Shown here piece after piece: positions 51,101 to 64,000 of a stretch of DNA of 64,000 nt. How positions within the stretch are numbered: position 1 is the stretch's first letter; each line of letters starts with the position of its first letter. The DNA comes from Tubiluchus corallicola (taxonomy: Eukaryota; Priapulida; Priapulimorpha; Priapulimorphida; Tubiluchidae). The stretch is from assembly GCA_030141605.1 (NCBI GenBank), contig JAQGDQ010000139.1:454614-518613 (forward strand), in the 5' to 3' direction. A program made the translations under genes and the position numbers. A model generated the notes under the pieces. The model ran no database searches. It was not told the origin of the DNA and worked only from the letters and a program-made list of their open reading frames with translations.

Positions 51101-54100
51101 ACTATTTGGCTTCGTGTAGCTGCCATTTTAAAAACAGTGTCCATTTTTAAAAAAAGTAACAGAAATGGATTCTTCTTTAGATCCAACTATCCTTGGAATT
51201 AAAATAATCGCCTCTTAATGTTAATTTTCTGGGCATTTCTTTTGATTTATATGGTTTGCACAAAAGCTTGGTGGGCCACTCTCTTTTTCCATTTTTGACA
51301 TCACATTAGAGTTTAGAAAGAGTTGGTCACACTGCAACCATGTCATTACTTTCTGGTTTTGCAAACTATAACTACTTATTTTGAAAAATTACAATTGAGG
51401 ATAACATAAGACAGTGCTGAAACATTTATTGGTTTGTTATAATTATAATATGAATCTGTCTTATACATTCGTTTTGTGTCTAAAATTTGTATTGTGTTTC
51501 CTTACATTTATAATATTGTCACCGTCACTGTTGTTTATCATCACTCTTAGTTTTACACAAAAATTTGAATCCAAAAATATGTGATCACAAGACAATAATG
51601 CTACCATAACCAACATCACTTCTCTTAATATGTTACATTATGGTAACTGAGTGCAACGACACAAAGGAATAGATATAATGTGTGGTAACTGAACAGAAAG
51701 CCACAATTTATAAGACCATTCATATTTTATAAGTTGTTTTGCAAGGAAGAAAAAAGTGAAACCTTTAAACCATCCAGATGTTTTTTCAAAGTAATACCAT
51801 CTTCCTCTTTTGTAACAACATCAGGAAACATTACTTCCATTTCCACTTCCTTGAAATTAGTTTGTGAGTCTTCATCGCTAAGTTTTAACTGATACAGAGG
51901 TAAAACGTCTGTATCAGTTTTTAATAATTTTTGTGTGTCTTCTTTAGTATCACGTGCAATGTCACTTGTATGAGTAGGAGCAGCTGAAACTGTAAAATGG
52001 TATATGCATATTATGTAGGCTACCATAAGTATTAATACCTGACGAGATGAAAAATACAAAAAGTATGTATACCAGACATGTGGATAAAAAAATTAGAATT
52101 TTCCAAAATTATAATATTATGAACACGGCAAATGCAGTCAAACTCTATAAAAAGTAATATATTTATTTCTGTGTCAAATATACGCCTGTCTAATCAAATG
52201 AATATTTTGAATCAAATGAGTATACATGTATCTCTCCTACTAAAATGAAAATACAGATAAATCCCGGTAATATAATTCGGCTTATAACGAAACTCTCGGT
52301 AGTACGACGATTTTATCATGTCCCTGCCAAGCTTATTATAAGACTTATGTAATCACGTATAGTTACTACAAAACCCCCATTTGTATGATATTTTGCCAAA
52401 CTCCTCCTACCAATATAGTTTTAATACAAATAAATACTTTTAATACGATTTCTGCAATGGCCCGCCCTGTCTAGACTCTAGGTACTCTTCACCTGTTGTC
52501 ATGGTAACTATAGCTATGTTTTTGAAACCATACAAAACAATAATGGAATGCACGTACACATACAGATAAAATGTTTTGTCATAGTTCAGTTTTAATGGGT
52601 TTTAAATAAGACAATACATTCAGCCAGATGTTCAAAGTTCAGCACAATGTTTAAATGACTTCACTACAAATTTTGCTTGCAAGAACGCAAAACACAGTAA
52701 AAGTACTGAATTCTTCAAGTAATAAAATATGAGATAATTACAGCTACTTCTACTTTGACGGATTTTTTTCACAATAAAAAGTTCTATAGTTTATAATTAA
52801 AAATTAATCATTAAAATGAGTGTACAAACAACTGCCTGCAGTCAAGTTGTTGATGTGCAAAACGCTTCCCACTATAATGAAAATTCGCCCTTATAGTTTA
52901 AAATGCCCTTACATATATTTGTTACAGACTGGCTTCCCAAAAATAGCAAGGCCTCACTTACGCATATCCACTTGCAATACATAGCAGCAGTTCTAGTAAC
53001 ATTTTGTTGCGTAGTTGGACATTTAACATTGTGATGTATTACATTACAGATGCGGCAGCAGCATAAAGCAACATACTGCAGACTCTCTGCTACCACTAAC
53101 CCTTTGCTTACAGACTTTTCTTTAGACTAACCTGAGCAACTGAATTACAATACATTGGTATAATTTTGCAGTTTGTTCATATGCGAAACGGGGGTTAAAC
53201 AAGCTATCAAAAGAAAACTGATGTAGAGATTACCAATTGGTTAATTGCTAAGTTACATAGGAGTAAAAATCCGTGTAATGGTACGAAACCCGCTTAATAT
53301 GAAAAAATGTTTTGTTTCCTTGAAAATGGTATTACTGGGATTTGACAATATGTATGTTTAATAATTATTGACAAAAGCAGTAAAAAGAGAGGTGACACAC
53401 AGATAGAATGAGCACAAGAAAAAGAACCAGATAGAGAAAAAAAGAGTGCATGCAAGAGGGAAAGAGTGATATAGGGAGAAAGAGAAAGAAGAGGAAAGAG
53501 GGAGGGAGGAAAGCGAGTGAAAGAGAGAGAGAGAGAGAGAGAGAGAGAGAGAGAGAGAGAGAGAGAGAGAGAGAGAGAGAGAGAGAGAGAGAGAGAGAGA
53601 GAGAGAGAGAGAGAGAGAGAGAGACCAAGACCATTTTACAATACCTGTATCATTAAGCAATCGGTTTGTCAAGAGGGCAGCAGAACTTGTTTTTTTCGAT
53701 GAGGTACTTAGAATCCTGTTCACAAGTGAAAGAGAACTCTTCCTAGATGAAAGGGAATTCTCCAAGCTGCTCTTAAATTGCTTTGAAGGACTCTGACACA
53801 CATGACTCTGAGCAAACATCTTGCGTTTGTGAACATCAGAGTGAGATCCCAAGCCAAGTTGCGCATTAGTTAAACTACAATTTACTAACTTAGATGTGGC
53901 CAATGCTGGAACATTACGTGCAACTGTTACACTACTCAACAATTCTAAATACGGTTGCAATGGCATGGCCACTGTATGGCAGTAGCTTGCGTCCGAGACT
54001 GATGTGGTAGGTTGAAGAAGCTTTGCTTGTTGAGTATGACCAGTATGCAATGAAGACATCTTTGTAGTAGTAGAACATCTTTTTTCTAGGAAGGGATTTG

Positions 54101-61725: not shown

Positions 61726-64000
61726 GATGAACAAAACGTAACTGTTCTGGTTTATGTAAGGAATTTGAATAGGTTTTTATTTAGATTTATTTATTTACTT
61801 TTGCTGTGTGAATATTGTTAAAATACGGGTAAACATGGGTGTGGGCGCGTTTCAGCTGGGGTGTTTGTCTGCAGGAGCCCCGTAATGTCGTTCGTTAGCC
61901 TTGCTAGGGCCTCAGAAGGATATAATCCGGCAATGGTGAAAAAACAAATTTTACAGCGAAATGCCTCTAGCATTTCGTAGAACTTTGTATTATCTAATCG
62001 TTTTACTTGAAAAGTGATATCGCAAATTTAAAAAAACGTGACTTAGCGCAATGACTAGCTTGAAATGAACAAAATTGAATCGAACTGGAAGCTATGTTGC
62101 ACGAGTCGCTGGCTACCTTGTGTACTTGACGGTTACCACGTGGGTACAGTAAACAAAAATAAACAGGATTTCACCATTTGAATGGAAATTGCTATATTAT
62201 GTATGGAAATTGCACTGCCATTTGAGAAACTTTTTGTATTAGCATAACGTGCACGGCGGACGCATGGCTTATTCACGGTGCTGTGCATAAAAGCAACAAA
62301 AATTGTTTCGATTTCGTGTATGTGATTTGAAATTATGTGAATAATCTAAACATTAACGGTAGTACCGTTTTCTTCGGTTTGATAATAACTATTGGTTTAC
62401 TGGCTCTACTTGGTAGCAGTAGTAGTAGTGGTAGTAGTAGAAGAGAGAGAGAGAGTTGTAGTAGTAGTAGTAGTAATGGACTCTTTATTTGTCATAAAAA
62501 GAATTGCATAAATGACAGTTCTCAGTGTAGTTGTTTTGAAACAAAGCTCTGCTGAAGACAATTGCGTCCAGTGAAATAAAAATTAGGGATATCAGAAAAA
62601 CGTGAGTATCTAAAAACTACATGTGTATATTGTACAAGGCCTTTTAAAGATTAAGCTAAGCCAAAAATACATGCAAAGTGTGGCAGATACAAACACCACA
62701 AAAAGTACAACAAACTAGATACAAAGCATGCTACAATTATTATTAAAACACGAAATCAGGTTTCAAATATTAATTACAAATTACATAATTATGAATTACA
62801 CAAAATACTGAAACACAAAAACTAGATACTTAACCAAAACTAGATGTTGTGCAAAGTCCCTAACAGGAAACACCAGAACTGCACATATTTGTGCAAAATA
62901 AACTATTTTATTGAAAACAGTAAAGTAGTTTCATACCAACAGACTTATCAGCTAAAGGTGGTAATGTTACATCTGCCTTACAACAGGGAAGAACAGATTG
63001 GGCGGAGGCTAACAGTTAAGTAGTAATGCCTACATCACAAGTAGGATGTAACTAATGCGACAGAGGGGAGTGTTGGCACAATTGAAGCCATAGTGCTCTT
63101 ACAGTTGTATATGAGACATATGTTTGGAGTAGAGTTCATTTTTAGTGTAAAAGCATGGCTAACTGAATTTCTTTGTTGTTAGCAAAATGAAATAAGACGA
63201 CGGTGTTTGTTAGCATATTTCTTACTGAATAAAGAAGTTTAATTTGAATTAATTTATATTTATGTTTATTTGATAAAATTGTGAGTTTGCAGTGACACGA
63301 ATTTTACGAGAAGGTGTCGAAACACAGCATGCATTATAGAACTAGTAGCCAACAATATATTTGTTAAGTGCACGTGTTAAGATTTTTTTAACTGAACAAT
63401 CACGGCGCAAAAATTGGAGGAAAGTGTCTCACAAATAATTCAAAGGCTAAATGAAGTGTCATTGCATTTGTGCTGATACATGTATAATTTTACAAAATTG
63501 TAACCCAGATTAACTTAGTTCTTTGTTCTTTCTATTGTTTATGGAAAGAAATCTGAATGAGCTAGTTATTCATATAAGTTTCAAAACCATTTTAGTTAAT
63601 GATAAATAGTTTTTTCGTATAGTTTCTTACATGTCTGCTTTTGGTTGTAAACATTCCGGCATGATAACATATATTGTAAGGTTATGTTTATATGCCCTTT
63701 GTAAAACAGATTGCAGTATCCTGTGTGGATCACTGGTATGTGATGTTTTAAAATGAATTTAAATTGTAGGAAGTTGTTCCTGAGTTGTAATTTACATTAG
63801 CACAATGCTTGTTATGTTGTATAACCTAATCTTTGTGATTTTTTGCATTTACAAAATTGTTCTTGGTAATATGTCATTTTGTGGACAGGTAGTGTCGCCG
63901 AATCGGCGAATAGAATTTGTTGTTAGGAGAAGAAAAAAAATTTTGGTTATTGAATAGAGAAAAATGGATAAGACAGATTATGTGTTTGTTGGCATATTTA
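61714..64000. repeat. Inverted duplication arm B, copy 2
   Basis: Reverse complement of 54555-56831, running off the window. It carries the second copies of the 72-residue ORF (62337-62555), the CCAAT/GC-box stretch and the E-box. Confidence 0.95.

Follow-up and report, generated by a model that had tools for sequence, protein, structure and literature searches.

Strand-alternating copies of the TEP1 5' region at a contig end of Tubiluchus corallicola: probably a chimeric sequence

Contig C268 of the Tubiluchus corallicola assembly (GCA_030141605.1; JAQGDQ010000139.1) closes on three blocks copied from the 5' region of the TEP1 gene and joined on alternating strands. We regard this as probably a chimeric sequence, arising as an artefact of DNA copying or of assembly and retained at the contig end, and not as a real rearrangement of the genome. 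The repeats, the alternation of strands, the homologies at the junctions and the flush position at the contig end are all visible in the assembled bases.

Results

The DNA analysed (the window, 64,000 nucleotides) comprises bases 454614-518613 of C268, which is 518,613 bases long. Window base 64000 is the final base of the contig. Comparison of the window with itself showed that three blocks of the TEP1 5' region recur at 60492-64000 with 99-100% identity. The preliminary description had reported this repetition, with two blocks reversed and one direct. A residue-by-residue comparison bears it out, and the block boundaries given there are right to within a few bases (block E ends at 56831, not at 56832). 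Block C (52714-53590, plus strand) lies in the predicted intron 1 of TEP1 and overlaps an old dispersed element and a (GA)n tract, each in part. Its copy (60492-61368, minus strand) is inverted and identical at 877 of 877 positions. Block A (51850-52212, plus strand) contains the 5' part of the predicted TEP1 exon 2 along with intron 1 sequence, and its copy (61363-61725, plus strand) is direct and identical at 363 of 363 positions. Block E (54555-56831, plus strand) lies upstream of TEP1 exon 1. Its inverted copy (61714-64000, minus strand; about 2.28 kb) is about 99.2% identical to the source and is flush with the contig end, the position expected of an assembly artefact at a contig end. Between sources and copies lies the spacer F (56832-60491, plus strand), whose full-length match, among the best 40 candidates of the genome search, is found only here. 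The two arms of E are 4.9 kb apart, with the mosaic inside. The rest of the window gave only a 251-column palindrome at 68.5% identity and short tandem arrays, and the three repeat pairs are therefore not due to chance. A simple palindrome was ruled out, as the copied order, C'-A-E', is not the reversed order of the sources.

The arms had been described as close to identical. This holds for C and A, whose copies show no difference at all, and less strictly for E. Residue by residue, the E copy has one isolated substitution (55779, C/A) and a 13-nt insertion (at 55409), together with two small changes, a C run that is 2 nt shorter (at 56633) and TT>A at 56742-56743. These differences look like those of an allele or like consensus errors. 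The perfect copies of C and A indicate that neither is a raw read. An insertion of 13 nt is hardly a sequencing error, and thus calls for a second allele or for real divergence. It does not decide between the readings discussed below, being expected both if a chimeric molecule came from the second haplotype and if a real copy has diverged slightly.

The naming of the gene as TEP1 (telomerase protein component 1), on the minus strand, is sound, as it is supported by Pfam domains on the downstream exons. Six of the nine minus-strand frames given were matched. TROVE (two frames), DUF4062 (24356-24613), nSTAND1 and WD40 scored above the cut-off; DUF4062 at 24939-25250 and the second beta-propeller of TEP1, on single exons, scored below it. 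TROVE, DUF4062, the STAND NTPase and the TEP1 beta-propeller follow in order on one strand, the arrangement by which membership in TEP1 was judged. No Pfam match was obtained for the frames of exons 1 and 2 or for 41379-41762, and Rfam gave no match at the gathering threshold in the window. Exons 1 and 2 were placed on the basis of their strand and of splice sites, read from the sequence, that agree in phase. The coding part of exon 1 is predicted at 53645-54110 (minus strand; ATG 54108-54110, donor GT 53643-53644), and the first 134 nt of exon 2 at 51850-51983 (minus strand; acceptor AG 51984-51985). These 134 nt and their acceptor fall inside block A, and coding sequence has thus been copied, a point absent from the preliminary description. 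That account held instead that exon 1 is not copied. No copy of the predicted exon 1 (53645-54110) appears before C268 ends. The E copy is cut at 64000 by the contig end, so copying of exon 1 beyond this point cannot be judged and the general statement cannot be concluded. The same cut bears on the proposal of a large palindrome whose copied upstream region could drive transcription in the opposite direction. As C268 gives out within the copied upstream region itself, the promoter claim is unsupported.

Within the minus-strand span of TEP1 there is an apparent plus-strand gene (33337-35698), with TEP1 domains flanking it on both sides. Of its two open frames, the second (34763-35695, 311 residues) gave no Pfam match; by eye, its product resembles a membrane protein with a single pass and a fibronectin-III-like N-terminal part.

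Read outward from the spacer, the order is F(+), C'(-), A(+), E'(-), and the strand flips at three of three junctions. The jumps, taken from the coordinates, are about 6.9 kb, 0.9 kb and 4.6 kb. Junction J1 (F to C') lies at 60492, the start of the C copy, inside (CT)n, where a shared length is not definable. The corresponding (GA)n tract (53519-53624, plus strand) is 106 nt long; together with its copy it is the only pure purine or pyrimidine run of at least 60 nt in the window. J2 (C' to A; 61363-61368) consists of the 6-nt shared sequence CTTGAA, and J3 (A to E'; 61714-61725) of the 12-nt shared sequence AATATTTTGAAT. When 200,000 random inverted joins were drawn from 51000-60400 (9.4 kb), a match of at least 6 nt was seen in 0.26% and one of at least 12 nt in 0.004%. 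Short homology guided the joints. We judged 6 and 12 nt too short for an assembler overlap, which places the switches inside molecules or reads, or in the chromosome.

Genome searches were made with 51600-54560, 54555-55555, 55560-56835 and 56830-60480. Among the best 40 candidates of each search there was no second contig with the locus, and long matches of high identity fell only within C268, the others being dispersed and of lower identity or short. Parts of B, C, E and the spacer contain dispersed elements, and the start of contig C1955 (see below) is explained by such an element. Ordinary dispersed repeats, inverted by chance, are a very improbable source of the present copies all the same. 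Relatives of the blocks outside C268 are, among the matches listed, 66-85% identical, or 85-95% identical over at most about 145 nt, whereas the copies are 99-100% identical over 3.5 kb. The identity and length of the copies already contradict this reading.

The old element in TEP1 intron 1 (52248-53346) is cut by the edge of block C and has, by eye, inverted-repeat-like ends; many copies 66-85% identical are found among the matches listed. A short element of roughly 250 nt (55439-55693), pieced together from matches to its two halves, has dozens of copies at 85-95% among the matches listed, and a 36-nt piece of it forms a tandem array on contig C2056. The repeat within the spacer (about 57940-58585, about 650 nt) has many copies at 86-96%, again among the matches listed. 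Matches on C1787 and C2264, and likewise on C45, C2048, C2100, C2197 and C2212, showed the same spacing and identical scores. The distance between two elements is exactly 62,857 bases in each of C45, C2048 and C2212. Such agreement suggests that the assembly may contain redundant contigs or long duplications.

The repeat had been described as either recent or an assembly error joining two haplotypes. The artefact side of this statement is the one we favour. A simple join of two haplotypes is not, because C'-A-E' needs three flips, two of them at matches of 6 and 12 nt. In such a misjoin the assembler would have crossed to the other haplotype in reverse through (CT)n at J1, and the second haplotype would be differently arranged. 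J1 does lie in a microsatellite, the changes in the E copy are few and allele-like, and the assembly seems to contain redundant contigs. Against this, the other haplotype would need the order E-A'-C, which no single inversion of A-B-C-D-E yields, J2 and J3 share only 6 and 12 nt, and the best 40 candidates per search included no second contig with the locus. We consider a misjoin improbable, and less likely than a real rearrangement. An inversion polymorphism of a single step was rejected as unable to yield E-A'-C, and reinsertion of a circle was set aside as it would require an extra inversion and a deletion.

We also analysed 19 other contig ends of 10 kb each (L017-L035). The sample is non-random, drawn from contigs in the earlier matches with four added by number; one member is the other end of C268, and the 10 kb of another (L023) include 2,500 N. 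Two of the 19 ends (C1955 and C2054) close flush on a terminal inverted repeat of at least 100 nt, which the other 17 lack. C1955 was rejected as a second case. Its terminal repeat is a transposon found nearly full length, at about 98%, in nine other contigs, and as lower-identity or partial copies in many more. This transposon (L032, C1955:1-10000) is young and at least 1.35 kb long; beside the nine other near-full-length copies, two lie inverted at the contig start. A local inverted copy not due to a transposon was left at one of the 19 ends (C2054), to which C1449 is added, found by similarity and not part of the sample. At 1/19, such joins are not a general habit of the assembly. Four other sampled ends (L020, L027, L028 and L029) have long purine or pyrimidine runs and no join of this kind. 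The ends L019, L024 and L027 run into direct or tandem repeat arrays. Repeat arrays are a usual cause of contig breaks.

Across 795 columns outside the microsatellite, the local inverted copy at the C2054 end differs from its source by 13 deletion events, 5 mismatches and 1 insertion, as we would expect of little-corrected read sequence. Only one other place with the copied DNA was found, on C1449. C1449 (L036, 1-6000) follows C2054 (L021, 735311-745310) collinearly at 94% and parts from it 77 bases short of the fold. Past the fold point C1449 continues with 2.3 kb of other sequence and no inverted copy; this related contig thus lacks the fold. C1449 in turn opens with 986 bases that are inverted relative to C2054 (98%) and joined through a CT tract; compared with C2054, it lacks about 2.2 kb at this join (4050-6234 of L021). 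The start of C1449 could be an inverted join or a real inversion allele. CT tracts lie at the joins of C268 (J1) and C1449, and at the contig end, not the fold, of C2054. C2054 and C1449 have one flip each, against three in C268.

The interior control comprised window 1-50000, taken as five 10-kb stretches, and a further ten loci, each 3.1-3.7 kb long and no nearer than 4 kb to a contig end. In this thin control no inverted pair reached 95%, and only self-palindromic elements were seen: one at 68.5% in the window, others at 75-87% in L008 and L013, and a palindromic cluster in L015, in which one pair of 144 nt is 90% identical.

Discussion

Chimeras of MDA (phi29) were reportedly described by Lasken and Stockwell in 2007. 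In the counts given in PMC1855051, 406/475 MDA chimeras are inverted, 337/475 are inverted with less than 10 kb between the segments, and more than 70% of the junctions have 2-21 nt of complementarity. The end of C268 is like them in these respects: the segments are joined in inverted orientation, every jump is below 10 kb, and J2 and J3, with 6 and 12 nt, lie within the 2-21 nt range. The chimeras of that source differ in being single junctions in reads of about 100 nt. C268 has three successive junctions in an assembled contig.

A local inverted copy that follows its source is also what palindromic and foldback long reads look like (PMC6218980, PMC12870357). For two sets of WGA long reads, 45.8% and 11.8% of the reads are reported to contain palindromes, compared with 0.5% for an unamplified control; the same report describes inverted duplications in a published gorilla Y assembly, so that palindromes in reads can survive assembly (PMC6218980). 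The figures given for ONT genomic DNA are about 0.55-0.6% foldback reads, with almost none for PacBio HiFi (PMC12870357). The likeness is incomplete. Foldbacks are defined in PMC12870357 by a return within 200 bp, whereas in C268 a mosaic separates the E arms, which stand well apart. Switching that is local, inverted and guided by microhomology has been published as the signature of WGA chimeras and is foldback-like, and this favours an artefact. Against an artefact stand the near absence of foldbacks from PacBio HiFi as reported in PMC12870357, the 13-nt insertion in E, the perfect copies of C and A, the low count of such joins in the sample (1/19), the four sampled ends with long purine or pyrimidine runs and no join, and the fact that C2054 and C1449 each have a single flip.

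For the chimeric contig end that we prefer, the following course may be proposed. A strand under copying, or a read crossing strands, would have come off its template within the (CT)n tract and, at a short match, started again on the opposite strand close by. Three successive switches would then lead from F(+) to C'(-), to A(+) and to E'(-). The chimeric molecule would have become the outermost sequence of C268, kept for want of any contradiction. The few changes in the E copy may represent the other allele of the sampled individual or a poor consensus at the contig end. That the switching occurred in vitro, and by which chemistry, we infer.

Natural template switching can also give inverted copies with microhomology, as described in PMC10766186, and the joints alone are therefore not decisive. 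A real and recent complex rearrangement in the animal, by FoSTeS/MMBIR or as an eroded inverted-repeat amplification, is in our judgement unlikely. Replication would have stalled at (GA)n and the nascent strand switched templates three times to leave a local inverted duplication; the contig would have stopped because the inverted repeat is long. The microhomology at the junctions, the long (GA)n tract at J1 and the allele-like differences of the E copy, including the 13-nt indel, would fit this history. In yeast and humans, inverted copy-number variants are reported that have enlarged spacers and microhomology at their junctions (PMC10766186). The C268 end shares with the FoSTeS/MMBIR and ODIRA variants of that source the microhomology junctions, the inverted segments and a spacer between the arms. 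Those cases come from cells or patients (PMC10766186), whereas C268 is known from an assembly alone, and its copy stops where the contig does. The flush position argues against a real event, as may the local inverted joins at two unrelated contig ends. Three short steps with a change of strand at each, all within 10 kb, agree better with the in vitro pattern of PMC1855051. Were the event real, and we think it probably is not, the (GA)n tract of intron 1 would have triggered serial switching in the germline or soma, duplicating the TEP1 upstream region in inverted form and transposing a piece of exon 2, and exon 1 would perhaps also have been copied beyond the contig end.

The case calls for caution. 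Near-identical inverted "duplications" in the last kilobases of a contig should not be taken as gene biology until reads span them. Strand alternation that reaches right up to a contig end, with short stretches in common at its joints, may serve as a flag for suspect ends, and joins in CT tracts such as those of C268 and C1449 are worth counting across the assembly. If the rearrangement were real, it would be a small and sharply mapped case of serial template switching at a polypurine tract.
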